Shown: piece after piece, positions 2,452-19,349 of the stretch
Numbering within the stretch: the first letter of the stretch is position 1
Layout: each line of letters begins with the position of its first letter
Notes under the pieces: model-generated
Told to the model about the DNA's origin: nothing
The model's database searches: none
What the model saw: only the letters and a program-made list of their open reading frames with translations
Made by a program: the position numbers and the translations under genes
DNA from: Vulcanimicrobiota bacterium
GTDB lineage: Bacteria; Vulcanimicrobiota; Vulcanimicrobiia; Vulcanimicrobiales; Vulcanimicrobiaceae
Direction of reading: 5' to 3'
NCBI GenBank assembly: GCA_003164495.1
Contig: PLTN01000032.1
Location: forward strand, 20,038-61,206
DNA length: 41,169 nt

Positions 2452-3804
2452 TTACCCTCGGATGATGGCGAGCGCCTCGTCCCGGTGGCGCTCCATCAGG
2501 TCCTTGCTGTCGCCCTCGACGTTGAGGCGCAGTAGCGGTTCGGTATTCGATGGACGTACGTTCATCCACCAGTCGTCGTATTGGATTGTGACGCCGTCGA
2601 GGAAATCGATCTTCGCATCCTTGAAGCGATCTTGCAGCTTTTGCAATGTCTGCGGGATGTCTTTGACTTCCGAGTTGACTTCGCCCGACCGCGCGCGTTT
2701 GTCGATCGGTGCGATGACGCTCGAAACCTTGCCGGGCGCGCGGCTGAAGACGTTGAGGCACTGCATGAGCGCGATCATTCCGGAGTCGGCGAACCAGTTG
2801 CGCTTGAAGTAGAAATGCCCGGAATGTTCGCCGCCGAACGGGATGTCTTCGTCGCGCATCGTCTTCTTGATGAACGAGTGGCCGACTTTCGAACGCACCG
2901 GTATCCCGCCGGCTTTCTCGATCGCTTCGGGGACGCTGCGGCTGCAGATCAGGTTGTAGAGAATCTTTGCGCCGGGATTGAGACGGATCGTGTCGATGCC
3001 CACGAGCGCGGTGACGATGTCGCCGCCGATCAGCTGCGCCTTCTCGTCGACCAGGAACATCCGATCGGCATCGCCGTCGAACGCGACGCCGAAATCGCAG
3101 CCGTGCTCGGTGACGGCTTTCTGCAAGTCGACCATGTTCTCGGGTTCGATCGGGCTGGCCGGATGATTCGGAAAGGTACCGTCGAGATCGAAGTACATCG
3201 GGATGACCTTGCACGGCAAGCGCCCGAACACGCGCGGTACCGTTTCGCCGGCCATGCCGTTGCCGGCATCGATCGCGATCGTGAACGGTTTGATCGCGCT
3301 GATGTCGTCGATGAAGGAGAGGCAATGATCGGCAAAGCCTTCGAGGATCTCTTGCTGCTTGATCGTGCCCTTGCGCGCCGCGGCCGGTTTGAAATCACCG
3401 GCGATCGCCTTGTCGCGGATCTCGGCTAAGCCCGTCTCGATCGAGATTGCGATCGCCTCTTCGCGGCAGAACTTGAAGCCGTTGTACTGCGCCGGGTTAT
3501 GTGAAGCCGTGATCATGATCCCGCCGTCGAAACCGTAATGGCCGACGGCGAAGTAGATGGCATCGGTGGAGATGAGGCCGACCTGCGTGACGTCGGCGCC
3601 GGCGTCGGTCGCTCCCCGCGAGAGCGCGGCCATGAACGCCTCGCCCGAGGGGCGCATGTCGCGGCCGATACAGATGTTTTTGCGGTCGAGTACTTCGACG
3701 AACGCGCGGCCGATCGCGTAGGCGATATCGTCGTTGAGTTGCGCCGGAACGATGCCGCGGATGTCGTAACTCTTGAAAATCGACGTATCGATGTCGGTGC
3801 GCAT
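2452..3804 (-). CDS. manB: Phosphomannomutase/phosphoglucomutase (alpha-D-phosphohexomutase)
   Basis: 450 residues, full length for the bacterial PMM/PGM family, which interconverts hexose 6-phosphates and hexose 1-phosphates for sugar nucleotide, exopolysaccharide and LPS synthesis in the cytoplasm. All four signature loops are visible: the phosphoserine loop TASHNP with Ser101, the Mg-binding loop DGDADR (243-248), the sugar-binding loop GGEHSG (324-329) and the phosphate-binding loop RPSNTE (417-422). Mannose versus glucose preference cannot be told from sequence alone, so the symbol is approximate. The gene is upstream of, and abuts, the dynamin gene. It is divergent from the dehydrogenase at 3831 with only 26 bp between start codons. 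No good Shine-Dalgarno sequence is visible before ATG 3804. Confidence 0.93.
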   Translation of the reverse strand: MRTDIDTSIFKSYDIRGIVPAQLNDDIAYAIGRAFVEVLDRKNICIGRDMRPSGEAFMAALSRGATDAGADVTQVGLISTDAIYFAVGHYGFDGGIMITASHNPAQYNGFKFCREEAIAISIETGLAEIRDKAIAGDFKPAAARKGTIKQQEILEGFADHCLSFIDDISAIKPFTIAIDAGNGMAGETVPRVFGRLPCKVIPMYFDLDGTFPNHPASPIEPENMVDLQKAVTEHGCDFGVAFDGDADRMFLVDEKAQLIGGDIVTALVGIDTIRLNPGAKILYNLICSRSVPEAIEKAGGIPVRSKVGHSFIKKTMRDEDIPFGGEHSGHFYFKRNWFADSGMIALMQCLNVFSRAPGKVSSVIAPIDKRARSGEVNSEVKDIPQTLQKLQDRFKDAKIDFLDGVTIQYDDWWMNVRPSNTEPLLRLNVEGDSKDLMERHRDEALAIIRG

Positions 3805-3830
3805 GTGATTCCACGCTTTCGGAGGGTGAA

Positions 3831-4802
3831 ATGGCGAAACCTATGGTCGTGGTCACGCGAGCCGTCCCGCGCGAGGCGCTCGAACTGCTCGCTGCCCACG
3901 CGACCGTGGACGCCAATGGTGCCGACGTGGGTTATACCCCGGAAGAACTGGTTTCGCACGCGCGCGACGCCGACGCGATGGTGTCGTTGCTCACCGACCG
4001 CATCGACGATTCCGTCATTTCCCAATGTCCCAAGCTCAAGGTGGTCGCCAACGTTGCGGTCGGTTACGACAACATCGACGTCGCGGCCGCGGCCCGGCGC
4101 GGCGTGGCGGTCACCAACACCCCGGGCGTGCTCACCGATGCGACGGCGGATTTCGCTTGGGCGCTGCTGCTCGCCGTTGCGAGAAATGTCGTTCCGGCCG
4201 ACCGGTACGTGCGCGACAGGCGTTTTCGCGAGTGGATGATGATGGAGTTCCACGGTGCGGAGCTGGCCGGGCGGACGCTGGGCATCGCGGGCTTCGGACG
4301 CATCGGCGCCGCCGTAGCGCGCCGCGGCCGCGGTTTCGGCATGCACGTGATCTACGCCAACTCGCGCCGCGTCGCACAAGCGCTCGAAGAAGAGACCGGC
4401 GCCCACTTCGTCGATAAAGAGACGCTGCTTGCATCGAGCGACGTGCTCTCGCTGCACGTCCCGCTGACGGCGGCCACGCGACACTATCTGAGCGACGCGG
4501 AGTTCGCGTTGATGAAGGCGTCGGCATTTGTGATCAACACCGCGCGCGGCCCGGTGATCGACGAAGCGGCACTCGCGCGTGCCCTCACGTCGGGCGCGAT
4601 TCGCGGCGCCGGCATCGACGTGTTCGAACGCGAACCCGCCGTCGACCCGGCGCTGCTCGCTGCGCCCAACACCGTCCTCGCGCCGCACATCGGATCCGCC
4701 ACGACCGAAACCCGCACCAAAATGGCCCTGATGGCCGCCGAAAACGTCATCGCCGTCCTCGCCGGCAGAACCCCGGTAAACCCCGTCACGCTCAAGGAAT
4801 GA
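3831..4802 (+). CDS. D-isomer-specific 2-hydroxyacid dehydrogenase (glyoxylate/hydroxypyruvate reductase type)
   Basis: 323 residues, typical for GyaR-like enzymes that reduce glyoxylate or hydroxypyruvate (or oxidise D-glycerate) with NAD(P)H. The Rossmann motif GFGRIG is at 154-159. The catalytic triad of the family is present: Arg239 in TARG, Glu268 in FEREP and His286 in PHIG. The N-terminal substrate-domain block VAVGYDNID is at 75-83. There is no C-terminal ACT domain, which argues against a full-length SerA (3-phosphoglycerate dehydrogenase). A strong GGAGGG ribosome site sits about 5-10 nt before ATG 3831. The exact substrate is inferred from length and motif style only. Confidence 0.9.
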   Translation: MAKPMVVVTRAVPREALELLAAHATVDANGADVGYTPEELVSHARDADAMVSLLTDRIDDSVISQCPKLKVVANVAVGYDNIDVAAAARRGVAVTNTPGVLTDATADFAWALLLAVARNVVPADRYVRDRRFREWMMMEFHGAELAGRTLGIAGFGRIGAAVARRGRGFGMHVIYANSRRVAQALEEETGAHFVDKETLLASSDVLSLHVPLTAATRHYLSDAEFALMKASAFVINTARGPVIDEAALARALTSGAIRGAGIDVFEREPAVDPALLAAPNTVLAPHIGSATTETRTKMALMAAENVIAVLAGRTPVNPVTLKE

Positions 4803-4832
4803 ACGCGGGCTCCTTGCGGCACTAAGCCGCGT

Positions 4833-6053
4833 ATGCGGCGGCGAGGTGAGGCGGGGTTTACGCTGATCGAGATGGTCGTCGTGACGGCGATCGTCGTGAT
4901 CGTCGCCGGAACGATCGGCACGCTTTTTCTCGCCGGCGCATCACCGGCGGTCGCTTCCGCGGGCCGCGATGTCGGCGCGGCATTCGACGAAGCTCGCCGC
5001 ACGGCGATCGCGTTCGACGCGGCGACCGTCGTGTTCGCACCGGCGCAAAGCGGCAGCGGCTACCGCGCGCGGATCTACGCGCGCATGCCCGGTGATCCCG
5101 CGTTCGCGGAGCGCAACGGGCCGGCGTACGACAGCACGGTCGCGATCACCGAAACGGCGTCGCCGCTCGGCGCACCGGGCTTCGCGTTCGGCATCGACAG
5201 CCGCGGCACGGTCACCGGTTTCGCCGATTTCGTCGCGGGACAGACGAACGGGACGAGTCACCGGTGCCCGGCTAGCGGCGCATTTGTCTTACGTCTGGCG
5301 TATGCGGCCGACGTGCGGACGGTGACGATTCCGTGTCAGCTTCCGGTCAGCAGCAGCACCCCGGTCGCATTTGAGACACCACCGGAAACCCCGTCCGCGG
5401 CGCCGCTTTCAGGCGCGACGTGTCCCGGCACCGAAACCTGCACGCTCGCGCTCATCACGCCGCCGGCTGCGTCATGCCCGCCGGGGTACACCGTCGATGC
5501 AACGACGCCGGGCGTCTGCGATGCCGCCGCTGCACCAACGCCGAGCGCAGCAAGTACGTGTCCGCCGGGCTACGCGGGCCAGCCGCCGGATTGCACGCTC
5601 GCCGCCATCCCGACGCCCACGCCGATCGCGCCGCCGGGCTGCTCTCCCGGTACTCCTGATCCGCTCGGATTTTCGAGTTGCCTCGAGTCCGATCCGATCC
5701 ACATCACGGGGAACGCGATCACCCGCCAGGGCTGCGGAACGCACACGCCGATTGCCGATCCGGGCGCGAGCTTCTCGATCATCGTTGATATTTGGCAAGA
5801 CGGTGCGCCGTGGGGTTCCTACATCATCGACGTCTCCGAACTCAAGACAAAATGGATGGATGTCGCGTTTATGCCGCCGCAGCAAGTCTGCGGATTAGCG
5901 TATAGCCTTGGGTTTCACATCGACGCAGCCGCCCCGGAGTCCGGAAACGCGGTATCGACGCCGTTGCAAGACACCGGCGACCCGGCATTCGCCAACGACG
6001 GCATCGACTCGATACTCGTACCGCCCGCCGGAAGCTGGGGCAGCAACGCGTAA
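4833..6053 (+). CDS. FimT/GspH-like minor pilin with long Cys-rich C-terminal extension
   Basis: 406 residues. The N-terminus carries a type III (prepilin) signal: a short basic leader, Gly8 cleavage, then FTLIE with Glu13 as the mature Glu5, followed by a hydrophobic helix (about 14-36). Residues 1-170 match the size of a FimT/GspH pseudopilin. From about 180 to 290 the chain becomes Pro/Thr-rich with many Cys and two CPPGY motifs (215-219 and 243-247). A further roughly 115-residue domain (about 290-406) is unrecognised. This is about twice the normal length for FimT. A 5-bp hairpin (4816-4830) lies just before ATG 4833 and no Shine-Dalgarno is evident. It is likely part of the minor pilin set continuing at 7415. 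The pilin call is firm; the specific role is inferred. Confidence 0.82.
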   Translation: MRRRGEAGFTLIEMVVVTAIVVIVAGTIGTLFLAGASPAVASAGRDVGAAFDEARRTAIAFDAATVVFAPAQSGSGYRARIYARMPGDPAFAERNGPAYDSTVAITETASPLGAPGFAFGIDSRGTVTGFADFVAGQTNGTSHRCPASGAFVLRLAYAADVRTVTIPCQLPVSSSTPVAFETPPETPSAAPLSGATCPGTETCTLALITPPAASCPPGYTVDATTPGVCDAAAAPTPSAASTCPPGYAGQPPDCTLAAIPTPTPIAPPGCSPGTPDPLGFSSCLESDPIHITGNAITRQGCGTHTPIADPGASFSIIVDIWQDGAPWGSYIIDVSELKTKWMDVAFMPPQQVCGLAYSLGFHIDAAAPESGNAVSTPLQDTGDPAFANDGIDSILVPPAGSWGSNA

Positions 6054-6064
6054 TCGCTTCCGCT

Positions 6065-6252
6065 TGTCATCCCGAGCGGAGCACCGTAGGGTGCGTAGTC
6101 GAGGGACCAGCCGTAGCCGCGGTGGTCAGCAGGGCAACTCCACTCAGCGTTGGTGTTAGACTACTCGTCCGCCCTGCGGCGTCCGAGCTCGGCGACGACG
6201 ATCGTGGCGCGTTCCTCGACGACGCGCCTTCGGCGCTTTGCTCGGAATGACA
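6065..6252. repeat. 188-bp inverted-repeat (REPIN/MITE-like) element
   Basis: Two arms of about 43 bp face each other. The left arm (6065-6108) begins TGTCATCCCGAGC, and the right arm (6210-6252), read on the minus strand, begins TGTCATTCCGAGC. They match at about 80% with one gap. Each arm holds its own 5-bp hairpin, GCACC/GGTGC on the left and GCGCC/GGCGC on the right, so the one A-T pair is replaced by G-C (a compensatory change). An inner pair AGGGC/GCCCT (near 6131 and 6171) adds further fold-back. The element fills the gap between a plus-strand pilin gene and a convergent minus-strand lipoprotein gene, where REP-type elements commonly sit. No ORF is seen inside. Confidence 0.75.
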
Positions 6253-6277
6253 CAGAAACGAAGACGGTACTCTGAAT

Positions 6278-7336
6278 CTACGAGTTGTTCACGACGGTGC
6301 CGGCGGGGCACGGCGTCGATACGGGATAGCCGTATGCGCCGACCACGGTATCGGCGGCGTTCGGGGTGACGAGTTCGTAGTCGACGTTTGCAAATGCGGG
6401 GGCGCTCGCGTCGACGACGGCTGCGAGGCCGGCCCAAAGGTGCGCGCCGTCCACGAGGTTGAGATAATGACCGCCGGGCGGATTCGAAGTCTTCTCGGCC
6501 AGAAACGCCGCCTCGGCGTACCCGAAAGCGACGGCGCCGGTTCCCGAAACGAGCGCGAGGTTTTCACCGGTGAGGCCGATCGCGCCGATCGCAACGTAAC
6601 GCGACGACGGCCCCACGTTCTTCGTGTCGTAGTGACAGAAGTAATTTGCCGACGATTCATCGCTCGCGTGGAGACGCGCGGCTTCCTCGGCGGATTCATC
6701 GAAAATCAGCGGCCCGGCGCCGTTTGCGGCCCGGTCGGCGTTCACCGCGGCCAGTGCGCCGGCTTCGGCGGCAGACGCGCTCGAAATGCGCAGCACCAAC
6801 CCCGTCGATGCGGCGAGAAACCGATGCATGGGGAGCGGAGCACCCGCGCTCGTTCCGTCCGTTCCCGCGCCGAAAACTTCGACATAGTAGCCGGTTGCCG
6901 GCGGCACGAAGCCGCTGAGATTATCCGGCGGAACGACAAACGGTTCGGCGCTCGACGCCGCTGCCGGTGCGATCGCCGGGGTCAGCGCGAACGCGCCGCC
7001 GGCATTTGTCGTGACCGCCGCGTCACCGGCCGGCAATTGCGCCGGCGGTGTGCCGCCCACGATCGGAACCGGCCCCACGATCACCGTCGCATGCGCGAGC
7101 GGAACGGTTTGCGATGCATCCGCGGACGCGTACGTCACGCCGGCGATTGCCGCCGGTCCGTACGCATCGGCCGCCAGCGCAACGACGCTGCCGGCTACCG
7201 TGACCCCGGGCGGAGTTGTGGGACTCGCACTCGGGATCCCGATCGCGGATGTGCCGCCCGCGTTCGCTGTGCCGCCGGGTCCTCCGCCGCACGCGGCGAG
7301 CGCGAGGACCATGGGCGCGACGAACGCGTGCTTCAC
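6278..7336 (-). CDS. CAP/SCP-domain lipoprotein
   Basis: GTG 7336 gives 352 residues with a lipoprotein signal peptide ending at lipobox LAAC (Cys16). The frame is open much further upstream, but that part is antisense to the pilin genes. The next internal ATG (7312) would leave too short a signal. The middle (about 45-185) is a low-complexity, Ala/Pro-rich region with beta-rich, carboxypeptidase-regulatory-like character. Residues about 195-330 form a CAP (SCP/Tpx-1/Ag5/PR-1) domain: His223, the GENLA motif with Glu258, and GHYLNL with His290 correspond to the family's cavity residues. Bacterial CAP proteins are extracytoplasmic and mostly of unknown activity. It lies on the opposite strand between two blocks of pilin genes, 78 bp divergent from the next pilin. 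Confidence 0.83.
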   Translation of the reverse strand: MKHAFVAPMVLALAACGGGPGGTANAGGTSAIGIPSASPTTPPGVTVAGSVVALAADAYGPAAIAGVTYASADASQTVPLAHATVIVGPVPIVGGTPPAQLPAGDAAVTTNAGGAFALTPAIAPAAASSAEPFVVPPDNLSGFVPPATGYYVEVFGAGTDGTSAGAPLPMHRFLAASTGLVLRISSASAAEAGALAAVNADRAANGAGPLIFDESAEEAARLHASDESSANYFCHYDTKNVGPSSRYVAIGAIGLTGENLALVSGTGAVAFGYAEAAFLAEKTSNPPGGHYLNLVDGAHLWAGLAAVVDASAPAFANVDYELVTPNAADTVVGAYGYPVSTPCPAGTVVNNS

Positions 7337-7414
7337 CGCAACGCTAGTGCCCGAGTGCCCCGGTTTTATGCGCGCCGCGACTAGCGGCGCTCCGATGCGG
7401 GCACTGCTGAGCGC

Positions 7415-8506
7415 ATGCACGCGAACCGAACGTCGCGCGAAGCCGGCTTCACGCTGATCGAAGTTCTGGTAGCGACGGCCCTGTTCGTGTTCGTTGCGCT
7501 GGCCGGCTTCGAAGCCGTGCGCCAGATCGGCTGGAACGTCGATCTGCTCGCGCAGCGCGCCGATGCGGCGGCGCAGCTCGACGTCGCGGCGGCCATGCTG
7601 CGTTCGGATGCGCTCTCGGCCGTCGCGGTTTGGAAACCGGCATCGACCTGCGGCGACGCGGTCGAATTCATGCAGCGCAATGCCGGTGGCACGTCGTTCT
7701 TGCTCTACGTCGCGCAGCCGCCGGCACTCGTGCGCGCGGCTGCGGCCGGTCCCATGAATCCGTGCGATCCCGCGCTGCAAACGCAAGTCGCGGTCTCGCC
7801 GATCGCAAGCCTGACCGTCACGGCGATCCCCGCGGCGGCGCTGCCGGCACACACCGATCCGGTTTCGGGCAACGGCGACGGCGCGCTTTTCAACGCGGCC
7901 GGCATCACGGCGGTCGCAGCCGATTCGCACGCGCTGGACGTCGATGGGTCGCACATCATGACCGGTAACGGCGTCATCGAGGTGAGCATCGATGCAGATC
8001 CGGTGCAGACGACCATCGACCTCGTCGCGGGGAACCGTCCCTCGGCGTACACCCAAGTCCTGGCGTACACGTGCAACGGCCGCTGCGAAGCGAATGCCGC
8101 CTTTCCGGAGATTCGCAACGCCGCGTTCACCGATTGCGCGCCCGGCTACGACTTCCAGAACGCGCCCGCGTACTACGTTCCCGCGGCGTATGGCTATGCC
8201 GGGTTGGGCAACGGCAATCAGCGCATCGTCGTCACGGCCTATAGCGTCACGGGCGGGTATACGTTTGCGTTCGCGGGCGCCGTGCCGGGCACGGCCGAGC
8301 GGACGTGGCCCGTGGCACTCTGGCCGCCGGCGGGTTCCCCACTGGCCGGCACCATCGCCGATCCGTATCCGGTCAACTATGCGAGCAACGCCGTGCAGGC
8401 GCGCGGCGCGGCGCAAATTGCGAGCGACCTCGGCGAGCCGGCGGCGTTCTCCGCCGAGCTCTCCGCCTGCGCGGACATGCACGCGGACCCGACGTTCGAT
8501 GACTGA
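7415..8506 (+). CDS. PilW/GspJ-like prepilin-type protein
   Basis: 363 residues beginning with a prepilin peptidase site, EAG|FTLIE (cleavage after Gly11, mature Glu5 = Glu16), and a hydrophobic helix of about 20 residues, the N-terminal assembly helix of type IV pilins and pseudopilins. The remainder is Ala-rich with scattered Cys and no other recognised domain. Length fits PilW/GspJ-type minor pilins better than GspH/I. It overlaps the next gene by 8 nt, so the two are almost certainly translated together. Minor pilins prime pilus assembly and tune adhesion or DNA uptake; which of these applies here cannot be read from the sequence. Confidence 0.82.
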   Translation: MHANRTSREAGFTLIEVLVATALFVFVALAGFEAVRQIGWNVDLLAQRADAAAQLDVAAAMLRSDALSAVAVWKPASTCGDAVEFMQRNAGGTSFLLYVAQPPALVRAAAAGPMNPCDPALQTQVAVSPIASLTVTAIPAAALPAHTDPVSGNGDGALFNAAGITAVAADSHALDVDGSHIMTGNGVIEVSIDADPVQTTIDLVAGNRPSAYTQVLAYTCNGRCEANAAFPEIRNAAFTDCAPGYDFQNAPAYYVPAAYGYAGLGNGNQRIVVTAYSVTGGYTFAFAGAVPGTAERTWPVALWPPAGSPLAGTIADPYPVNYASNAVQARGAAQIASDLGEPAAFSAELSACADMHADPTFDD

Positions 8507-9029
8507 GCGCCGGAGCGAAGCCGGTTTCAGCTTGCTCGAAGTCGTGGTGTGCGTCGCGCTGCTCGTGATGGGCAGCGTGCTCGCCCTCGCTCTCTTGCCG
8601 GCACTCGCGCGCGCTTCGCAAGCGCAGCTGCTGCGCAGCGCCGCAACGGAGATCGCGCGCAACGCGATCGAACGCGCTCGCGCTGCCGCCGCGTACTATC
8701 CCGCCGCGGCCGTCGCCGATCCGGCGCTGCGCGCCACGGCGACGGCCGATCATGCCTGGGTGTTCGCGCCGGCCGCAAACTACGTTGCGGCGGTGCGCGT
8801 GCATCGGGCGTACTGCGGTTCGTCCGCGGCCACGAGCATCGTGTCGATGAACGTCGGCCTCACCTACGATGCGCCGAGCGACACGCTGACGGTCGCGGTC
8901 GCGTATCCGCCCAATCCGTGCGATGTCGCGGTGCAGGCGACGGTCTCGCTCGCAGCCCAGCTCGCGCCGGCGAGCTACGCGCCGCAAACCCAACTGCCCG
9001 CGGCGATCGCCGATCCGGCGCTGCAGTAG
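8499..9029 (+). CDS. PilV/GspI-like prepilin-type protein
   Basis: ATG 8499 lies inside the end of the preceding pilin gene (8-nt overlap) and gives 176 residues. The N-terminus has the prepilin motif EAG|FSLLE (cleavage after Gly9, Glu14 as mature Glu5) followed by a hydrophobic helix. The size and SLLE variant resemble PilV/GspI minor pilins. The frame is open upstream, but that section is antisense noise over the preceding pilin. The stop codon at 9027-9029 is immediately followed by the next gene's ATG, so the three genes form one translational unit. Confidence 0.8.
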   Translation: MTERRSEAGFSLLEVVVCVALLVMGSVLALALLPALARASQAQLLRSAATEIARNAIERARAAAAYYPAAAVADPALRATATADHAWVFAPAANYVAAVRVHRAYCGSSAATSIVSMNVGLTYDAPSDTLTVAVAYPPNPCDVAVQATVSLAAQLAPASYAPQTQLPAAIADPALQ

Positions 9030-9794
9030 ATGCTGGCGCAAACGCTGGTCCTCATTGCGATGCTGGCGATTTTTGCCGCGTCGGCGGTGGCCGGCGTCGC
9101 GGGCACGGCGCGCGCGCAGAGCGTTGCCGCAGCGAAGGCGCTGATCGTACCGGGCGTGGAAACGGCGCTCGGACGCTATCAGCGTTACGTCGCGGCCGTC
9201 ATCGGCGCGCAGATCGCGGCGGCGCCGGAAGCGCTCACGGCCGAACCCGCGGCGATCCCGGCGCTCGAAGCAGTATCCGTTTGGAATGCCCAGCACTATC
9301 TGGAGGCTCCGGCAGCATCGTCGTCGCCGTTGCGCGTCGCGGTCGGCGTCGTGCCGAACGCGCAAAGCGTGCCGTTATGCGGCGGCAACGACGGCGGTCC
9401 GGATGCGGCGGTTCAACTGCAGTGCTCGCCGTTCGTGCAAGAATCGCGGCTTTCACTCGCCATTACGAGCGATGCCGGGCCGGCCGATGCGAACGGCGCG
9501 GTCAGCCCGCTCGCACACGGCCGGTATATCGTCACGCTGCGGCTCTTCGCGCAACCCCCGTACGCGATCGTCAGCGGTGTCACGGACGCGGCGGATCCGG
9601 CCGGCTATCATGAGGGTGACGACGCCGGCTGGGCCGGCGCGTTACCGGCCTTTGCTTCGCCCGCTCCCGACGACACGACGATCCACGTGGTCTACTCGTG
9701 CGTTGCCGGAACCGGTTCGTGCGCGGTGAGCAACCCCGCGCCGCAAGATGCGCCGACGACGTTACCGTGGACCAACGGCAACGGCGCTCCCTAG
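9030..9794 (+). CDS. PilX-like membrane-anchored protein of the minor pilin operon
   Basis: 254 residues starting directly after the previous stop codon. An N-terminal hydrophobic segment (about 5-25) would anchor the protein in the inner membrane. Unlike its neighbours it lacks a G|FxxxE prepilin cleavage site, so it may be a PilX-like or accessory assembly protein rather than a pilin. The rest is Ala/Pro-rich and ends with two Cys near the C-terminus. No family is recognised with confidence. Its TAG stop is the first triplet of a 53-bp palindromic repeat. The role is assigned purely from operon position and topology. Confidence 0.65.
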   Translation: MLAQTLVLIAMLAIFAASAVAGVAGTARAQSVAAAKALIVPGVETALGRYQRYVAAVIGAQIAAAPEALTAEPAAIPALEAVSVWNAQHYLEAPAASSSPLRVAVGVVPNAQSVPLCGGNDGGPDAAVQLQCSPFVQESRLSLAITSDAGPADANGAVSPLAHGRYIVTLRLFAQPPYAIVSGVTDAADPAGYHEGDDAGWAGALPAFASPAPDDTTIHVVYSCVAGTGSCAVSNPAPQDAPTTLPWTNGNGAP

Positions 9795-9844
9795 TGGATT
9801 CACGTTCCGTGAATCCGTCGCGTTTGGGCTACGCCCAAGCCGCC
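9792..9844. repeat. 53-bp double-hairpin repeat, copy A
   Basis: Contains two palindromes: an 8-bp stem GGATTCAC/GTGAATCC with a 5-nt loop, then a 6-bp stem TTGGGC/GCCCAA with a 3-nt loop. A second copy of identical length lies at 39152-39204 with 48 of 53 bases the same. Of the five differences, three are in loops and two form one compensatory base-pair swap. It sits between convergent genes. The stop codon of the plus-strand gene is its first triplet, and it encodes the last residues (Ala-Trp-Ala, stop) of the minus-strand hydrolase. No T-tract follows, so it is not a classical intrinsic terminator, though it could protect 3' ends on both strands. Confidence 0.85.
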
Positions 9845-10842
9845 GAGAACGCTTCGATGGCCGCGCACATCGCTTCGGGTTCTTCTTCGTGCGGCAGCAG
9901 CCCCGAGTTCGCAAACGTTACGAGCTTCGCGTTCTGCGCCAGCTTGAGAAATTCGCCCGCGTTGGCGAGCGGCGAGAACGACGACGCGTGTTCGCCCCAG
10001 GCGACCAGAATCGGCGCGTCGACGAACGGCAAGTCCTGTGCGATGTTGCAGTTGAGCAGCCCGCCGACGAAGTGCGCGGGAACGTAGCGCGCGCCGGGCT
10101 GGTGCGCCACGGCGTAGTAGTGATCGATGATTTCCGGTGTCGCGCTGGCGTAGTCGGCGTAGGTGGCACGGCCCAAGAAATAGCGGATCGACGGTCGCGA
10201 AGCGAGGCCGTTGAAGAGCGCTTCGCCGAGCAGCGGCGTGCGCACGGTGCCCGTGAGCGCGAGTTGCGCGCCGTTCGGCGAACGGTCGAGCACGCCGCCG
10301 AGCCCCGTCGGACAGATCGCGACGACGCCCGCAATACGTTGTTTCGATCGCGCTGCAGCGCGAATCGCAAAGGCCGCGCCGAGCGACGATCCGACGACGG
10401 TAACCGGCTCCGCCGGGCCCGCATCGGCTAACGCGTCGATGACGAGTTCGGTGAAGAGATCGGCGGAATAGCCGAGGTTCGGGCGATCGGAGAGCCCGCA
10501 GCCGAGCAGATCGAACGCCACCACGCGATGGTTCGCGGCGAGCAGCGGAAAGAGTTTGCGATACTCGTATGACGACGCGCCCGCGTAGATGCCGTGGACG
10601 AGCACGATGAGCGGGCCGCTGCCGGCTTCGGTCGAGAAGATGCCGTGCCCGCGCCAATTCCAGCGCCGCACGGTACCGCCGAGCGCGTTCGTGGGTACGG
10701 GTCCATTGCTCACGCTGCGGTTGAACACGGCGAGCGCGCCCGTCACCCCAGCACCCGCTGCGAGCGGGCGAACGAATTTTTTCACTACTTGCTTGTTCCC
10801 TGAATGCGCGAGCATTACCCGGCTAAGCGAACGCGATGCCAC
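9829..10842 (-). CDS. Alpha/beta-hydrolase fold protein
   Basis: 337 residues. The canonical hydrolase pattern is visible: oxyanion-hole HG at 83-84 (LVHGIYAG), nucleophile elbow GSSLG with Ser153, an acid-region strand around 276-284 (APILVAWGE), and candidate catalytic His318 near the C-terminus (LLPHEEEPE). An N-terminal hydrophobic stretch (about 25-42) may anchor it or be part of a leader. Substrate is unknown; esterases, lipases and C-C hydrolases share this fold. The start is uncertain: GTG 10842 or ATG 10815. It lies 34 bp downstream of the EAL-domain gene on the same strand and may be co-transcribed with it. The last codons fall inside palindromic repeat copy A. Confidence 0.8.
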   Translation of the reverse strand: MASRSLSRVMLAHSGNKQVVKKFVRPLAAGAGVTGALAVFNRSVSNGPVPTNALGGTVRRWNWRGHGIFSTEAGSGPLIVLVHGIYAGASSYEYRKLFPLLAANHRVVAFDLLGCGLSDRPNLGYSADLFTELVIDALADAGPAEPVTVVGSSLGAAFAIRAAARSKQRIAGVVAICPTGLGGVLDRSPNGAQLALTGTVRTPLLGEALFNGLASRPSIRYFLGRATYADYASATPEIIDHYYAVAHQPGARYVPAHFVGGLLNCNIAQDLPFVDAPILVAWGEHASSFSPLANAGEFLKLAQNAKLVTFANSGLLPHEEEPEAMCAAIEAFSAAWA

Positions 10843-10876
10843 GGCCGAAGTGCCTGCCTACTCGCGCCCAACGCCC

Positions 10877-13800
10877 CTACTTCCCGCCGCCCGAAGGGTG
10901 CGGGTGCTCCGAAAGCCATGTCTTGAAAGCCTCGAACGGCAACGGGCGGCAGATGGCAAAGCCCTGCATGTAGCGGCATCCGCGCTTCCGCAGCCATTCC
11001 ACCTCATCGGCATGTTCCACGCCCTCTGCTAATGAGTCAAGGCCGAAGTGTTTGGTGATCGAAATGATCGTCTCCGCGATCGTCTCGTCGTGGCGGTCTT
11101 TCAGGACACCGGAAATGAAGCTCTGATCGATCTTCACGATGTCGATCGGCAGGCGCTTGAGGGAGGACAACGACGAATAGCCGGTGCCGAAATCATCGAT
11201 GGCGATCCGGATGTTCAGCCGGCGCAGTGCGCGGCAGACGCGCCGGGTCGCTTCGACGTCGCGCATCGCGTCGGATTCCGTGATTTCCACGCCGACGTTA
11301 CTCAGCCGTACGCCGTCGCGGGCGGCCATCGTGAACGCTCGAATCACGCTCGAATCGCCTGCCTGGCGTCCCGAGAGGTTAAAGTACACCCGAAAATCCG
11401 GTCGCAATGCGGCGAGTTCGTTCGCGGCGGCGAGCGCCTTCTGCATCACCCAGGTGTCGATGCTGGTAATGATCCCGCTCTCCTCGGCAAACGGAATGAA
11501 GTCACCGGGGAGCAGGAAGCCGCGCACGGGATGTTTCCAACGGATCAACGCTTCGCACCCGGCGACGTTGCCCGTGGCAATTTCGATATGCGGCTGGAAA
11601 TACAGGATGAACTGATCCTCCGCAAGCGCTTCCTTCAACTCGTTCAGGAGCGTGGCGCGGCGTAGCGCGTCGCCTTCCATCCCGGCTTCGTAACAAACGA
11701 TCGTCCCATGTCCGTGCGCCTTGGCATTGAGCAAAGCGGCGCCGGCATGGGACAGGACGGCATCGATGGCCGTTCCGTCGCCGGGAGCGACCGCGAGGCC
11801 GATGGTTCCCGTGCGGGCAATGAAATTGAGACCGTCGCGGTCGCCGGTTGCGAATGGGCTCGCGAAGACCTCGGAAAACGCGACAGCCCGGCTGTGAGCG
11901 AAGTCCCGCGAAATCGGATCGGGTACGAAGATGCCGAAGACGTCGCCCTCGATGCGCCCGACAATCTCATCAACTGCGGCTAGTTTCTTGAGGGCATTGC
12001 CGACCTCGACGAGTACGGCGTCACCGATCATGTGACCGCGCGTTTCGTTGATTTCGCGAAAGTCGTCTATGTTCACGAGAATGATCGCGCAGCCAACGTT
12101 TTGGCCGGCCGCGGCGCGCGCGCGCGAGCGAAAGTGCGAACGGCTGAGCAGACCAGTGAGCACGTCGTGAGACTGTTGATATTGGATGCGCTCGAACTGC
12201 CAGCGTTGTTGGATGGAGTTTGCGAAAAACGTCGCAAGAACTTCGAGATAGACGTTATCTTGTGGCCCCAGCGCCTCGTGCGTTGTCTCGCCGGAGGCGA
12301 AGGTCAAGCCCCAACTCTTCGCCCCCGCATGAAAGGTCGTGACGATAAGCGAATGCGTGCGTCGCATCCACGTTAGCCGCGTCTGCTCGGGGCTCGTCGA
12401 GAAGTTGTCCCACGAACGCGTTCCGCCCCCGTTCGCCATGACGATCCCGCAGATCGTTTGTTCGAGCGGTATCGACGATCCGACCGCGGGAAAGTCCTTT
12501 GGAAAAGGCTGGTTCGATGCCGTGGCCTTCGCCGTAAGCGACGCCCCGTCGCTGACCCACAAGATGCCGCGGTAGTTTTGGTCCGGCCGAATCGAAGCAG
12601 CGCCAAGCGCTAACATTGCCTGCAGTTGGTCGTCACCGTGAAGGCTCGGATCGTTGACGAGACTCCGTAGCGCGTCGAGCCGCTCGGCATGATGTCGTGC
12701 GCGCTCCTCTTCGTCGTGTAACGAACCTTCGAGTTGGCTGACTTGCAATTGGTTGCCGAACGAGGACGAAAGCACGTCGAGATATGCGAAGTCGCCGGCG
12801 TCGAACGCAGCCGCCGTCGGCTCGAGCGAGCCGAACGTGAGCGAGTACCACGAACCGCCGGCTTCGAATTGCGTTGAAATTGCCGCCCGCCAGCCAAGCA
12901 AGAGTAGCGATTTCGGCGCCCCTTCCGCCGTCGCTAGATCGTCCCAAGAGCGTGTACGGTTGATGCTCGCTATCGGCGTTTTCTCGAGCGGCGTGCGGCT
13001 CCCGATATCAAGATTCGGGCGGTACCGGCCGTGGTCGCCCGGAGCGATTCCTACCCCGATGAGCGTGACATAGTTGTCTTCGATGCGGCCGAGCAGCCCG
13101 CAAAAGCGTTGGTTCGCTCGCAATGCCACTGCGGCTTGCCGAAGCATCGCCAGCAACCGTTCATGACGGTTGAGATGACGGTCGTTGGCGATCTGCCACA
13201 GCGCTTCGAGCCGCTCGGCGTGATGGCGTGAGCGCGCTTCGGCATTGCGGAGCGAGGATTCCAACTGGTCGACTTGCATGTGGTCGGCGAACGACGATGC
13301 CAGGAGTTCGATGTAGATGAAGTCTTCCGAATCGAAGGGCAGCGACGTTGGTTCGACGGATCCGAACGCGAGCCAATACTTCCGATCGCCGGAGACGAAT
13401 TGGGTGGAGATCGCCGACCGCCATCCGAGGAACGCCAAGTCGGCGCGTCCGGTTTTGACGTCCGCAAGATCGTCCCAGCCTTGCGTGCGAGACAAGCTGG
13501 GAACGACCGTTTGAGCGAGGAGCGTGCGACGGCCGATTTCGACGCGTGAAATCGCGTCGTTGGTGCCGGGTTCCGCACCAACGCCGATCACTACGACCTC
13601 GTCACCATCGATGCGACCGAGCAAGCCGTGAAACTGCTGGTGCGGACGAATTGCCGCCGCCGCTTGCCGGAGCATCGAGAGTATGAGATCGTGTCCGCGC
13701 AATCGTGGGTTGTTGGCGACGCGCCACAGCGTTGCGAGACGCTCGGCGTGACGGCGCGTGCGAACTTCGGCAGCGCGGAGCGCGCCTTGAGCTCGCTCCG

Positions 13801-15169
13801 CTTCGAGGTGGCGCGAAAAAAATGAACCGAGCACCTCGACGTATTCGTAGTCTTCGGGGCTAAACGAAATTCCGTCAGGGATTTCGAGCGATGCAAGCAT
13901 TAAAATGTAGACGACGTCGTTGGCGATGAATTGCGTGGTGATTTGGCTGCGCACACCGGTCTTGCGAGCGGGCGCCGGGAGGTCGGCGACGGTTTGGCAG
14001 TCTTCCCACGATTGGGTTCTGCCCGCAGCGAGGTCGCGCGCGAGGAGGGTCTCGTTCAGGGGAAGCCGTTTCCCGACATGTAGCATCCGCGCGATCTTCG
14101 CGTTGCCGCCGACGCCGCTGACGGCCGCCGAATCGACAACGTATTCCGCGTCTTCGATATGACCGAGCGTCCCGGTGTAGGATTGCCCCGGGCGGATCGC
14201 TGCTGCCGCGTCGCCCAACATGGCCAGCACCAGGTCGTCGCCGCTCAAGCGCGGCGTATTGACGATATGCCACAATGATTCTAAACGGGTGGCCTGGCGG
14301 CGGACGCGTTCTTCCGAACCCGCCAGCGATGTCTCTACCCCCCGCTTTTCGACGGTGAGTGCTTCGATCTCGACCGCGTGCGACGCATTGGTGCGGCGCA
14401 TCTCCTCGGCGTGCTTGCGCTCGGAAATATCGATGATCGATGCGAGGACGAAATCTCCGCGCGAGGTGGTCAGCGGGCTGAAGTCGATTTCGATCGGGAT
14501 CTCGCGACCGTCTTTGTGCAGTCCCCAATGCTCGCTTTTGATCTTGTCTTCAGCCGGCTGTGTGGCCCCGCCGTCTTTACGGAGCTGCAAGTATCCCGCG
14601 CGCAGCCGTTCTGGAACCAGCATGTCGACGGCGCTGTTCAGCAGTTCTTGCCGCATGTAGCCGAAGATGCGCTCCACCTCGCTGTTGACGAGCGTGATCC
14701 GCCCTTTCCGGTCGGTCACGATCATCGCCTGAGCTGCGCCGTCGATGACCAGACGCATCTGTTCCGCGATGTGGAAGCGCTCTTCCGCCTCCAGCCGGCT
14801 GCTGATGTCCGTGATGGCTGCAAGAATCAGCAGCTCGCCCCGCACCCGAACGGGGTTCAGGCCAACTTCTAACGGGATCTCCGTCCCGTCCTTGCGCAGC
14901 CCGCGAAGTCGCTTGCCGGCGGCCATCGGCCGGCTTGTCGGCGCAAGGAGATAATCACTGCGCAGCATTTGGTAGGCCGCGCGCAGACGTTCCGGTGTCA
15001 GCAGCTCGGTATTTTGACCCGCTAACTCCCGCGGACCGTAGCCGAACAGCAGTTGGGCCTCACCATTCGACAGGACGATGATACCGCGCCGATCCACGAC
15101 GATGATCGCAGTCGGAGCCGCTTCGACGAGGAGATGTAATTGTGGGTGATCGCCATGCTCGTCACGCAT
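10877..15169 (-). CDS. PAS-PAS-(GAF-like)x4-GGDEF(degenerate)-EAL c-di-GMP phosphodiesterase
   Basis: 1430 residues, no membrane segments. Order: PAS 1 (about 8-122), PAS 2 (about 132-250), a coiled linker, then four tandem GAF-like units (about 292-460, 473-640, 649-815 and 826-985). Each unit is preceded by a helix of the type RHHAERLEALW, and the repeat period is 176-182 residues. The GGDEF domain (about 995-1160) has EGDVF at 1074-1078, so it is probably not a cyclase and may only bind GTP. The EAL domain (about 1170-1420) keeps EAL at 1206-1208, ITES near 1296-1299, DDFGTGYSS at 1325-1333 and the AEGVE loop at 1381-1385, so c-di-GMP hydrolysis is expected. The multiple sensory modules suggest regulation by several ligands or one cooperative one. 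The start ATG 15169 is the first in frame. Family call firm; signals unknown. Confidence 0.93.
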   Translation of the reverse strand: MRDEHGDHPQLHLLVEAAPTAIIVVDRRGIIVLSNGEAQLLFGYGPRELAGQNTELLTPERLRAAYQMLRSDYLLAPTSRPMAAGKRLRGLRKDGTEIPLEVGLNPVRVRGELLILAAITDISSRLEAEERFHIAEQMRLVIDGAAQAMIVTDRKGRITLVNSEVERIFGYMRQELLNSAVDMLVPERLRAGYLQLRKDGGATQPAEDKIKSEHWGLHKDGREIPIEIDFSPLTTSRGDFVLASIIDISERKHAEEMRRTNASHAVEIEALTVEKRGVETSLAGSEERVRRQATRLESLWHIVNTPRLSGDDLVLAMLGDAAAAIRPGQSYTGTLGHIEDAEYVVDSAAVSGVGGNAKIARMLHVGKRLPLNETLLARDLAAGRTQSWEDCQTVADLPAPARKTGVRSQITTQFIANDVVYILMLASLEIPDGISFSPEDYEYVEVLGSFFSRHLEAERAQGALRAAEVRTRRHAERLATLWRVANNPRLRGHDLILSMLRQAAAAIRPHQQFHGLLGRIDGDEVVVIGVGAEPGTNDAISRVEIGRRTLLAQTVVPSLSRTQGWDDLADVKTGRADLAFLGWRSAISTQFVSGDRKYWLAFGSVEPTSLPFDSEDFIYIELLASSFADHMQVDQLESSLRNAEARSRHHAERLEALWQIANDRHLNRHERLLAMLRQAAVALRANQRFCGLLGRIEDNYVTLIGVGIAPGDHGRYRPNLDIGSRTPLEKTPIASINRTRSWDDLATAEGAPKSLLLLGWRAAISTQFEAGGSWYSLTFGSLEPTAAAFDAGDFAYLDVLSSSFGNQLQVSQLEGSLHDEEERARHHAERLDALRSLVNDPSLHGDDQLQAMLALGAASIRPDQNYRGILWVSDGASLTAKATASNQPFPKDFPAVGSSIPLEQTICGIVMANGGGTRSWDNFSTSPEQTRLTWMRRTHSLIVTTFHAGAKSWGLTFASGETTHEALGPQDNVYLEVLATFFANSIQQRWQFERIQYQQSHDVLTGLLSRSHFRSRARAAAGQNVGCAIILVNIDDFREINETRGHMIGDAVLVEVGNALKKLAAVDEIVGRIEGDVFGIFVPDPISRDFAHSRAVAFSEVFASPFATGDRDGLNFIARTGTIGLAVAPGDGTAIDAVLSHAGAALLNAKAHGHGTIVCYEAGMEGDALRRATLLNELKEALAEDQFILYFQPHIEIATGNVAGCEALIRWKHPVRGFLLPGDFIPFAEESGIITSIDTWVMQKALAAANELAALRPDFRVYFNLSGRQAGDSSVIRAFTMAARDGVRLSNVGVEITESDAMRDVEATRRVCRALRRLNIRIAIDDFGTGYSSLSSLKRLPIDIVKIDQSFISGVLKDRHDETIAETIISITKHFGLDSLAEGVEHADEVEWLRKRGCRYMQGFAICRPLPFEAFKTWLSEHPHPSGGGK

Positions 15170-15494
15170 CGATCATCACTGCGCGCTCCGCCGGCACGTC
15201 GGGTTTTCGCGCCAAGACCAACAAACACACGCGCGTCTGCTGCAACGTGCGACTCTCTTACTTCGTCTCGCCCAAGACAATACACACACACCCATGAGCA
15301 AGCGACCCAGCGTTACGGAGTCGCCGCCACCTTTTTCTGTACCCTCGGACCATTCGATCGAAACGCGGGTACGTTGCCGGGATGCAGCGCTGCGTCCGAA
15401 GGTCACCGTGGCGCTTGCCCGCTACCGCACAACGAAGCAAGTAAAGCGAGGCCGCGCGCCAGGACCGGGGGCGACCTCCGGTGCAGAGGGCGGC
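15170..15494. other. Intergenic region between divergent genes, no gene assigned
   Basis: 325 bp between the start of the EAL protein (minus strand) and the secreted protein (plus strand). An in-frame extension of the plus-strand gene from 15294 is possible, but it encodes a low-complexity basic stretch with no domain, so it was not accepted as coding. Promoters for both genes are expected here; no convincing -35/-10 pair could be picked by eye. A short CCGG/CCGG fold-back lies near 15466-15482, just before the likely start of the downstream gene. Confidence 0.5.
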
Positions 15495-15899
15495 GTGGTA
15501 CGTTCGGTCGTCGCCGCACTGCTGGCGGCGGTATGCGTTTCGGCGTCACCGGTTGACGCGAGTTCGTGCGCGTTGTCGACGGGTGCCGCGGTCGTTCTGC
15601 GCTCGAGCGATTTCGATCCCGACGTGCTGGTGTGGGATTCGCGCCAGCGCGAGATCGACTACGTGAGCGGGAACATCAAGAATACGGCCGAGGTCCTCAC
15701 GCACACGGTGCTCTCAAAATCGGGCACGCATGCGATCGTCGTGGGGTGCGATCCGTCGAGTTCCAAGCCGCGCTATTCGTCGGCGGTCCAGGATACGGTC
15801 GGGATCAAGCTCACGTCGGGACCCAACCGGGGCCGCTACGGCTGGGTCTCATCCGGCGACGCGCACAGCGCCGTCACGGCGCAGTCGCCCATACAATAG
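15495..15899 (+). CDS. Small secreted protein of unknown function
   Basis: GTG 15495 is preceded by AGAGGG at a suitable distance and gives 134 residues beginning with a basic, then hydrophobic, signal peptide that ends near the ASP-VDA-SS region. The mature protein of about 105 residues has two Cys, is rich in Ser/Val and looks beta-rich; no known domain is recognised. A longer reading from 15294 would bury the signal peptide behind about 65 low-complexity residues and is less likely. The next gene, a porin, has its own promoter, so this may be a single-gene unit. No function is proposed. Confidence 0.6.
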   Translation: MVRSVVAALLAAVCVSASPVDASSCALSTGAAVVLRSSDFDPDVLVWDSRQREIDYVSGNIKNTAEVLTHTVLSKSGTHAIVVGCDPSSSKPRYSSAVQDTVGIKLTSGPNRGRYGWVSSGDAHSAVTAQSPIQ

Positions 15900-15977
15900 T
15901 CGCAGCTGATCGGGGCCGCTTGCTTGCCGACTCTCCATTTGCATAGCGAAAAAGGCGGCTGGTCCTACCAATAGTGG

Positions 15978-16006
15978 TTGCCGCTGGTCGGATCGTGGGC
16001 TAAGAT
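15978..16006 (+). promoter_or_regulatory. Sigma70-type promoter for the porin-like gene
   Basis: TTGCCG (15978-15983) and TAAGAT (16001-16006) are separated by exactly 17 bp, each matching 4 of 6 consensus bases. Transcription would begin near 16013, leaving a leader of about 120 nt before the TTG start at 16133. A palindrome (GCGGC/GCCGC with inner ACCA/TGGT, 15955-15984) overlaps the -35 and could be an operator. Confidence 0.5.
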
Positions 16007-16012
16007 TAACAG

Positions 16013-16132
16013 GAGGTCAGTCCTCGCGCGCACCTGCGCGGGGGAGCCTGTCTCCGTTCGACCGTTTCCCCGGGGCCGCGTGCCTGCGGGGTCCTTGTGC
16101 GGTCGGATGCTCTTTATGAGAAAAGGAAACAC
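16013..16132 (+). promoter_or_regulatory. Structured 5' leader of the porin-like gene
   Basis: The predicted untranslated leader contains two GC-rich hairpins. The first is an 8-bp stem (16022-16029 with 16036-16043, one G-U pair) closing loop GCACCT. The second is CCGC/GCGG (16076-16079 with 16086-16089) closing the similar loop GTGCCT. They are separated by about 30 nt, and an AAAAGGAAA ribosome site follows just before the TTG start. No known riboswitch class is recognised. It may be a regulatory or mRNA-stabilising leader, as is common for abundant outer membrane proteins. Confidence 0.45.
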
Positions 16133-17446
16133 TTGAAACTACGACTAGCATCTCTCGCCGCAATCGTTGGGGCGATTGCGATGTGGAATGCATCACCTGC
16201 GGGCGCAGACCAAGTAGTGGCGCAAGCCGCCTCGCCTGCTCCGTCACCGTCCCCCACGGCTTCACCGCCGCCACATTTGCTCCAGGTTAGCGGATATGCT
16301 GACGCGGGCTACACCTCGGCCTCAATTGCGAGCGCGGTGGGATCCCCCGGCGGCTCGTTCATCACCGGGCGCGTGTTCGACGATCTGAACCAGCAGATCC
16401 AATTCCACAACTTCAACCTCCAAGTCGCGTACAACGGTCCCATCGGCGGTAAGGTCGAAGCGATCTTCGGTGACGACGCCAACGTCACGAACTCGTGGCC
16501 GAAGAGTCAGCTCGACGGCGCCCCGAGCCTCAACGGCACGGGTACCCCGTTGTCGGGTCCGTCGATCGATCTCACGCAGGCGTATCTGCAGTTGATCAGC
16601 GGCCAGTTCACCGGTATCGTCGGCCGATTCGAAACCCTGGCCGGCGCCGAAGTCATCGAGAGCCCGAGCGATCTCAACTTCTCGCGCTCGATTCTCTTCG
16701 GTTACGCGGTGCCGTTCACGCACACCGGCGGCCGTCTCACCTGGGCGATGAACTCGAACCTCTCGTTCGTGGTCGGCGCCAATAAGGGTTGGGACACCAG
16801 CGGCACGTTGAACGCACCGTCGAACAACTTCCCGCCGCCGTTCAACAACTTCGGCGGGGCCGCCGAACTCAACGACTCCAACGCGATCACCTTCGAAGGC
16901 GGCGCGATCTGGAATCCGAGCAAAGCCATCTCGGCGACCCTCGACGGCTATACCGGTCAAGTCGAAGAAGCCTATGCAATGGCAACCCCGGGTCTCTTCG
17001 TCGTTTCGCCGGCGCGCCCGAACAAGAGCCTCGTCGACCTCGTGGTCTCGTGGCAGGCAACGTCGGCTTTGAAGTTCGTCATCAACGGTGACTCCGGTCA
17101 GCAGACGAACTCGAACATTCTCAACGGTCCCGGCACCGCGATCATCGGTTACGGAACGGGAACGTGGAGTGGTCTGGCGGCTTACGCCAACTACGCGATC
17201 AACAGCCAGTGGAGCGCAACGCTTCGTGGTGAAGGCTTCGGCGATTACGGCGGTCTTCGGACCGGCGAGTCGATGCGTTGGGGTGAGGGCACGGCAACGC
17301 TGCAATATGCTCCGAACAACAACGTCATTCTGCGCGGCGAAATTCGCGGTGACAGAACGAACCAGCCGTTCTTCGTCGGAACCGGCGGGAACAGGTACTA
17401 CTCGAACGGTCAGTTCGGTATCGAAGCCATCGTCAAGTGGCCGTAG
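16133..17446 (+). CDS. Outer membrane beta-barrel (porin-like, BBP2 type) protein
   Basis: TTG 16133, preceded by an AAGGA ribosome site, gives 437 residues beginning with a textbook signal peptide (MKLRLASLAAIVGAIAMW, cleavage after AGA at about residue 25). A longer frame from GTG 16097 would spoil that signal. A Pro/Ser-rich linker (about 31-50) leads into a region of alternating aromatic and hydrophobic residues typical of transmembrane beta strands, ending in IVKWP. The overall pattern resembles putative beta-barrel porin-2 family proteins, which form outer membrane channels. It has its own promoter and intrinsic terminator, so it is monocistronic and likely well expressed. The beta-barrel call is solid; the transported substrate is unknown. 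Confidence 0.8.
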   Translation: MKLRLASLAAIVGAIAMWNASPAGADQVVAQAASPAPSPSPTASPPPHLLQVSGYADAGYTSASIASAVGSPGGSFITGRVFDDLNQQIQFHNFNLQVAYNGPIGGKVEAIFGDDANVTNSWPKSQLDGAPSLNGTGTPLSGPSIDLTQAYLQLISGQFTGIVGRFETLAGAEVIESPSDLNFSRSILFGYAVPFTHTGGRLTWAMNSNLSFVVGANKGWDTSGTLNAPSNNFPPPFNNFGGAAELNDSNAITFEGGAIWNPSKAISATLDGYTGQVEEAYAMATPGLFVVSPARPNKSLVDLVVSWQATSALKFVINGDSGQQTNSNILNGPGTAIIGYGTGTWSGLAAYANYAINSQWSATLRGEGFGDYGGLRTGESMRWGEGTATLQYAPNNNVILRGEIRGDRTNQPFFVGTGGNRYYSNGQFGIEAIVKWP

Positions 17447-17473
17447 ACCCGGACTGACGTAAAAGTCGTCATG

Positions 17474-17511
17474 CGCGCCTCGCAGATTCGTCTGCGGGGC
17501 GCGTTTGTTTT
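17474..17511 (+). terminator. Rho-independent terminator of the porin-like gene
   Basis: A 13-bp stem (17474-17486 with 17491-17503, one G-U pair) closes a TTCG loop and is followed by TTTGTTTT (17504-17511). It lies 28 bp past the porin stop codon. This is the clearest intrinsic terminator in the window. Confidence 0.93.
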
Positions 17512-17523
17512 GCACGGCGAGGA

Positions 17524-18552: not shown

Positions 18553-19349
18553 TCGACGCGCGCGGGCTGGTGCTCGGATACGAGGGCCGCATCGTGCTGC
18601 GCGATGTCGAGCTGATGCTGCGGCCGCACGAGCTGGTGGCGATCGTCGGGCCCAACGGGTCGGGCAAGTCGACGCTGTTACGCGCCCTAGCCGGATCGCT
18701 CGTGCCGATCGAGGGGCGCGTGACGGTCGACGGTGCGCTCGTGCACGGGCTCTCACCGGCCGAGCGTGCCCGCCGCGTGGCGCTCGTCGCGGCCGAAGAA
18801 TATGCCGACGGCGACGTAACGGTGCGGGATGCGGTAGCCATGGGCCGGCTCTCGCATCGTCCATGGTGGCAATGGAACGGGCCCCCGGAAGACGAGGCGA
18901 TCGTGGAGGCGGCGCTCGAGCGCGTCAACCTCGTGCCCTTTGGTGAACGTCTGCTGGACACGCTTTCGAGCGGCGAGCGACAGCGCGTCTGGATCGCAAC
19001 GGCGCTTGCGCAGCAAACGCCCACGTTGCTCTTCGACGAACCGACGAGCCATTTGGATTTGGGCGGTGCGTACGCCACGCTCGACATCTTGCGCGGCCTC
19101 GTTGCCGAAGGGGCGGCGATCGCGGTCGTGCTGCACGATCTGAATCTCGCGGTTGCCTCCGTCGACCGCATCGTGCTCGTCGGTGACGGCACGGTGCTGG
19201 CCGACGGACCCGTCGAATCGGTGTTTCGCGCCGATTTGCTGACGCGCGCGTACGGTGCGGAGATCGCGGTCGGCCGCACCGATGACGGCACGATGGTGGC
19301 GATGCCGCGCCGGCGCGTGCGCTTAGCGCGTGGCGAGTTCCAGTTGTAG
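18549..19349 (+). CDS. btuD: Vitamin B12 ABC transporter ATP-binding protein BtuD
   Basis: 266 residues, normal for the family. Walker A GPNGSGKST is at 34-42, the ABC signature LSSGE at 139-143, Walker B LLFDEP at 160-165 and the switch histidine His196. The position usually occupied by the Q-loop glutamine (VPQ in relatives) reads VAA (80-82), an unusual substitution followed by Glu83. It drives cobalamin import with BtuC. It starts inside the end of btuC, so the two are translationally coupled. Its 3' end overlaps the convergent TonB-receptor gene by 27 bp. Confidence 0.88.
   Translation: MIDARGLVLGYEGRIVLRDVELMLRPHELVAIVGPNGSGKSTLLRALAGSLVPIEGRVTVDGALVHGLSPAERARRVALVAAEEYADGDVTVRDAVAMGRLSHRPWWQWNGPPEDEAIVEAALERVNLVPFGERLLDTLSSGERQRVWIATALAQQTPTLLFDEPTSHLDLGGAYATLDILRGLVAEGAAIAVVLHDLNLAVASVDRIVLVGDGTVLADGPVESVFRADLLTRAYGAEIAVGRTDDGTMVAMPRRRVRLARGEFQL

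Follow-up and report, generated by a model that had tools for sequence, protein, structure and literature searches.

A REP-like family of double-hairpin repeats adjoining stop codons in Candidatus Eremiobacterota

Described palindromic repeats and the two copies in the window

REPs and BIMEs are the closest kind of described repeat to the element family reported here. In the available portions of the descriptions, GTAG-tagged REPs and BIMEs are multicopy short palindromes of convergent or co-directional gaps near gene 3' ends, whose termini are able to supply ORFs with a TAG, whose stems fall into subfamilies differing by complementary changes, and which form composite arrays (Di Nocera et al. 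2013, PMC3733652; Nunvar et al. 2010, PMC2817692), and the present family agrees with these portions in copy number, gene-end position, TAG provision, complementary stem changes and arrays. It also has the general character of REPs as high-copy extragenic palindromes of 20-40 bp (its hairpins span 19-21 nt within a unit of ~50 nt) lying near ORF 3' ends with termini able to provide TAG. It differs from GTAG REPs, as the same portions present them, in having (C)TAGT, CTAGG or TAGA in place of a fixed GTAG tag and two different hairpins head-to-tail in place of one hairpin or an inverted dimer, and GTAG REPs have a RAYT, whereas none was found in element-rich genomes. Candidatus Eremiobacterota is not among the host phyla named for GTAG REPs/BIMEs in those portions (PMC3733652, PMC2817692). 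An unpaired 5' GTAG or GTGG tag is missing, G-T being the conserved part, and a cognate RAYT flanked by inverted REPs was not found in these incomplete MAGs. The family works like a REP family but departs from the GTAG/RAYT group in two defining features: the tag is missing and no transposase was found.

CGTC-tagged REPs, in the available portion of their description, apparently have no dedicated transposase, and the question of their mobilizer is left open there (PMC3733652). No dedicated transposase is apparent for our element either, and CGTC can be read between its modules (CCGTCGCG, GCCGCCCGTC), but its linker is NTNGCG, with GTC, TTC, GTT, GTG, ATC and GTA all occurring, its stems differ in length, and the CCA tail given as consensus in that portion is missing. 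The ends of IS200/IS605 and the substrates of TnpA_REP (PMC6006769) are similar in being small hairpins beside a fixed short sequence, without duplication and with a bulged stem tolerated; they differ in that a Y1 transposase was not found in the element genomes and no guide tetranucleotide is demonstrated. Ends shared with a TnpA-encoding insertion sequence, as in an IS200/IS605-derived MITE, were not found, nor was any TnpA. Mitochondrial double-hairpin elements are likewise mobile double-hairpin repeats without coding capacity, but they are organellar and the resemblance is of form only. Our search of the literature on repeats in Eremiobacterota found no description of such an element.

The window (the whole 41,169-nt stretch of DNA analysed) holds two copies, whose parts and neighbouring genes are as follows; G001 is a congener of the source genome (G000).

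9792-9844, forward strand: copy 1 of the double-hairpin element, in the bounds of the initial annotation; the element proper most likely starts at G9794, the TA of TAG being the host gene's
9792-9794, forward strand: TAG stop of the upstream gene 9030-9794, with the same stop position in element-free G001
9796-9816, forward strand: hairpin 1 of copy 1, GGATTCACG-TTC-CGTGAATCC, from fold and covariation
9817-9821, forward strand: linker of copy 1, GTCGC (conserved pattern NTNGC)
9822-9840, forward strand: hairpin 2 of copy 1, GTTTGGGC-TAC-GCCCAAGC, from fold and covariation
9829-9831, reverse strand: TAG stop of the convergent alpha/beta-hydrolase gene (9829-10746), read as CTA in the hairpin-2 loop of copy 1
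39152-39204, forward strand: copy 2 of the element, 53 bp
39152-39154, forward strand: TAG stop of the upstream NADH:quinone oxidoreductase / Mrp-antiporter-like gene (37721-39154), the same stop being present in element-free G001
39156-39176, forward strand: hairpin 1 of copy 2, GGATTCGC-CTTCA-GCGAATCC, from fold
39182-39200, forward strand: hairpin 2 of copy 2, GTTTGGGC-TTC-GCCCAAGC, from fold
39214-40599, reverse strand: GGDEF/MASE4 diguanylate cyclase gene facing copy 2

As the initial annotation reported, both copies are 53 bp long, differ at exactly five positions and begin with the TAG of the gene upstream. Its reading of the differences as three loop changes and one A-T to G-C swap in stem 1 holds for the swap (A->G with T->C) and for the change in loop 2, but the G13->C and C17->A changes concern a G-C pair that closes the TTC loop in copy 1 and is lost in copy 2. 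Both copies do lie between convergent genes, as it also stated, except that the hydrolase gene ends inside copy 1, which supplies its last codons and stop, and not beyond it. Whichever strand is read, each copy folds into two hairpins (-26 to -27 kcal/mol, z -4.3 to -5.8), and in hairpin 2 of copy 1 a bulged C separates the core from outer GCG/CGC pairs. The hairpin-2 core, with 3 mismatches allowed, occurs at these two window sites only and in 0 of 100 shuffles, which, together with the genome-wide counts below, excludes chance. Rfam 15 gave no match above the gathering score at the element or for its long (92-nt) subtype. Elsewhere in the window, at 21310-21431 on the reverse strand, a cobalamin riboswitch scores 71.3 bits, above the Rfam gathering score.

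Family size, stem covariation and modular forms

Additional copies, on whose existence the initial annotation had let its reading depend, are plentiful. A pattern with allowed mismatches found 38 near-exact copies in the 5.37-Mb source genome and its reversed form found none, and the covariance search that had been proposed, run with a model built from 23 copies, gave 91 matches at E up to 1, about 80 of them with E < 0.01, corresponding to about 75-90 copies in a family of at least 70. In a survey of 60 genomes (the source included; those rich in the element are incomplete MAGs, the source being 84% complete), G001, of the same genus, carries 20 copies, G029, of the same family, 86, and six further members of that family 1 to 10 each, and the element is absent from most family members and from all other families. 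Believable named matches all come from Candidatus Eremiobacterota MAGs (bog, palsa and other sources) except for one in the unclassified 'bacterium REEB354', and viral contigs gave no match. A Nitrospirae match (L231) was discarded as chance, hairpin 2 failing to form there.

Three parts of the element are constant: the hairpin-1 foot GGATTC/GAATCC, whose own variation is pairwise; the linker NTNGC; and, in hairpin 2, the feet GTT and AGC together with a C bulge ahead of CGC. The stem bodies vary freely in sequence, but pairwise. In alignments fitted to the covariance model, 98.9% of cells pair among 75 distinct matches from the source genome, with 105 both-side changes vs 26 when shuffled, and 96.5% pair among 66 distinct matches from relatives (163 both-side changes vs 50), a signal that is abolished when the pairing partners are slid. 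MAFFT with RNAalifold on 19 long copies recovered the same two helices, with both-side changes in 9 of 24 pairs and stem 1 extended to the T/A pair right after TAG; U.G pairs are retained in stem 2. Compensatory changes across the family thus bear out the earlier claim that pairing is maintained, but the two window copies alone are not direct evidence of it at these loci. The 34 most recent copies carry 13 private substitutions, of which 8 fall in stems (34 of 46 sites) and 4 break a pair, so no significant protection of stems is detectable at single loci, a comparison of low power (n = 13). Because the share of private changes that falls in stems is close to expectation, the covariation reflects lineages of a mobile element rather than demonstrated selection at loci, and it is best explained by a requirement during spread.

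The family is a mosaic of one- to three-hairpin forms, tandem arrays and a 92-nt subtype. The subtype (L100:2001-2092, L093, L096, L097, L099, L101-L104 and others) has about 30 nt inside the hairpin-2 loop, with conserved stretches near CTCACGG and CGGAGT and hairpin 1 fixed, and this insert appears to be a distinct module set into the hairpin. In G029 many units also have a hairpin 3, GTCGGGTAAACCCGAC, which ends in CCTAG; its pattern gave 32 matches vs 1 in the control. Composite palindrome arrays like those of BIMEs occur, with modules head-to-tail and orientation not alternating; in the same genome L226:480-800 holds three hairpin 1-hairpin 2 units followed by hairpin 3, L199:1690-1960 one hairpin 1 followed by five hairpins 2, and L207:1690-1840 two units 89 nt apart. 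The copy at L117 consists of hairpin 1 only.

Position at gene ends and empty sites in a congener

The element is a multicopy, hairpin-forming repeat lying directly after stop codons, often at the overlap of convergent genes in a YTAR motif (CTAG, TTAG or CTAA). Gene context was taken from the fetched loci with a simple home-made gene caller. Among 70 copies scored in the source genome, 32 are convergent, 35 co-oriented and 3 divergent, so the convergent setting described for the window is not general; it is nevertheless enriched about 3-fold over the 15% of gene pairs (156 of 1017) that are convergent in G001. Mapping against stop codons, restricted to gaps with 20 or more free bases, placed the left end -1 to 2 nt from the upstream stop for 19 of 22 copies, against an expectation of 1.1 (P 3e-25). 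Among 45 such upstream stops 40 are TAG, vs 326 of 1024 stops (32%) in G001. Most copies have the left flank TAGT, preceded by C more often than by G, and TAAGT is seen where the upstream stop is TAA. Where no upstream stop is present the TA is usually lost and the GT before GGATTC often kept (CTCGT, CCGCGT), which suggests that G is the first base of the element and that the TA comes from the host. Right-end junctions are loose, ranging from -16 to about +20; some upstream genes stop at an element-internal TGA (gap -17), and four convergent genes, that at window copy 1 included, stop at an internal TAG read from the hairpin-2 loop TAC (gap -16). The element often contributes the G that turns a host TA into TAG, or else supplies a TGA or TAG from within, and of the two options offered by the initial annotation, insertion at gene ends and supply of them, both occur, the left stop being mostly pre-existing.

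Many sites occupied in the source genome are without the element in G001, where flank identity is about 75-90%. At L030, G001 reads TCTAG^CTTAAGGG and G000 reads TCTAG-element-TTAAGGG; the empty site is CTTAG^T at L008 and TAA^ATG, with stop touching start, at L091; and AAGTAA^ATGG in G001 is divided by the element in G000. At L090 (CACTA^A) the stop is TAG with the element and TAA without it, and because the stops differ in some filled and empty pairs (TGA or TAA vs TAG) the exact junction is not fixed. At the copy 1 site the G001 genes end in ...NGNGLP* and ...EAFLSPAPLV*, with both TAG stops in one CTAG, and those of the window genome in ...NGNGAP* and ...EAFSAAWA*, the final residues being element-encoded; at the copy 2 site ...LPLVR* and ...AYDEPLID*, whose stops overlap in CTAG, correspond to ...LPLVH* and ...AYDDAPF*. 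The forward gene's stop is kept and the reverse gene acquires a new tail at both sites. Of eight convergent empty sites, five (L006, L008, L010, L090 and copy 2) have a 4-nt YTAR overlap, against a background of 33 of 156 convergent pairs in the sampled contigs of G001 (binomial P about 0.013, worked by hand). A 4-bp CTAG target duplication was considered and dropped as inconsistent, L030 and L008 having no right-hand copy.

Other sites are common to both genomes with stems intact, and L095_50 is occupied by the long subtype in G000 but by the short one in G001, implying repeated insertion at one site or replacement. Presence and absence at orthologous sites of two congeners demonstrate mobility, and the intact reading frames and the overlaps at empty sites point to gain rather than loss, a polarity drawn from the sites themselves and not from an outgroup tree. 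In the sampled contigs of G001 (1.15 Mb) the 33 overlaps among 156 pairs are exactly 4 nt long, at CTAG, TTAG, TTAA or CTAA, and CTAG is under-represented there (610 seen, 981 expected).

Candidate mobilizers, rival explanations and a proposed mechanism

Y1_Tnp (PF01797; RAYT, TnpA) had 0 matches in G000, G001, G029, G035, G018, G007 and G030, control genomes being positive, and the family members with Y1 (G020, G027) are both without the element. RVT_1 gave a single match, in G018, among 12 genomes. TnpB-type proteins occur in G000 (2), G029 (1), G007 (7) and G030 (1), but none was found in G001 despite its 20 copies, so that TnpB does not follow the element. None of these three families fits as mobilizer. 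A Y2 family search gave no fitting candidate, but its control was also silent, and absence of Y2 is not shown by it. Genes between clustered copies encode ordinary enzymes and no transposase, and the incompleteness of the MAGs leaves room for a missed mobilizer gene. The TnpB-like proteins of G000, a genome with no detectable Y1 TnpA, lie at C150:2714-2914 (L237) and C139:3605-3751.

The element might be a MITE-like remnant of IS200/IS605 or of another insertion sequence, its transposase lost or unassembled: its hairpin ends, the lack of a duplicated target and its placement next to a short fixed motif resemble IS200/IS605, and TnpB-type proteins are at hand in four genomes. We consider this origin unlikely, however, since G001 has copies but no TnpB and Y1 TnpA is missing from every element-rich genome searched and present in element-free ones. 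CTAG/YTAR is also the target of IS5-like DDE elements, but terminal inverted repeats and consistent duplication, which such an origin would leave, are absent. Integron attC sites, whose core motif is GTTRRRY, were dismissed on inspection of the sequence, where that core is not present. A cis-acting RNA element, a bidirectional terminator or mRNA 3'-end stabilizer under selection at gene ends, its copies arising by duplication or gene conversion and being retained for function, would account for the constant 3'-end position with so few divergent settings (3/70), for strong hairpins on both strands, for the U.G pairs of stem 2 and for intact stems at shared sites. We regard it as quite improbable: the GC hairpin followed by a T-run of an intrinsic terminator was not found, no T-run following any copy inspected, a terminator scan of window positions 1-20000 does not list copy 1, the 5.4-Mb source genome has only about 70-90 copies, most family members lack the element, and stem protection is not detectable in the recent copies (n = 13). 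The footprint of a terminating ribosome covers the first nucleotides after the stop codon, and the left hairpin, 1-2 nt past the stop, lies within it.

The data are most probably explained by a REP/BIME-like family of mobile palindromic cassettes in Candidatus Eremiobacterota, inserted at stop-codon YTAR sites by a putative enzyme. Strong covariation with free base identity, together with fixed feet and linker, suggests that this trans-acting enzyme would recognize the hairpins, probably in single-stranded DNA. The element would be joined after the TA of the YTAR site without target duplication, its first G would remake the left gene's TAG, and the opposite gene would be closed by stops within the element or just past its right end, so that survivors would be nearly neutral 3'-end inserts. 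At the RNA level one or both of the convergent transcripts would end in a double hairpin, which may secondarily stabilize mRNA ends or limit read-through. As a tentative and rather doubtful extension, transposition might be RAYT-free, the putative enzyme moving single-stranded cassettes into stop-codon YTAR with a preference for overlapping convergent stops; each insertion would then separate overlapping genes by a double hairpin and rewrite one C-terminus.

The cassette family extends REP-like mobile repeats to an uncultured phylum and prompts one to ask which agent mobilizes hairpin repeats in RAYT-free genomes. Empty sites at base resolution resolve the association of repeat and TAG into an insertion site and an element-completed stop, and the window sites illustrate how small repeats can part overlapping convergent genes and alter protein C-termini. 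Upstream of copy 1, prepilin-like N-terminal sequences (EAGFTLIEMVVVTAIVV and EAGFTLIEVLVATALFV) occur in two genes (window 4848-4906 and 7439-7497, repeat D8), and their sequence suggests that genes for a type IV pilus or for type II secretion pseudopilins form a cluster ending at this copy.
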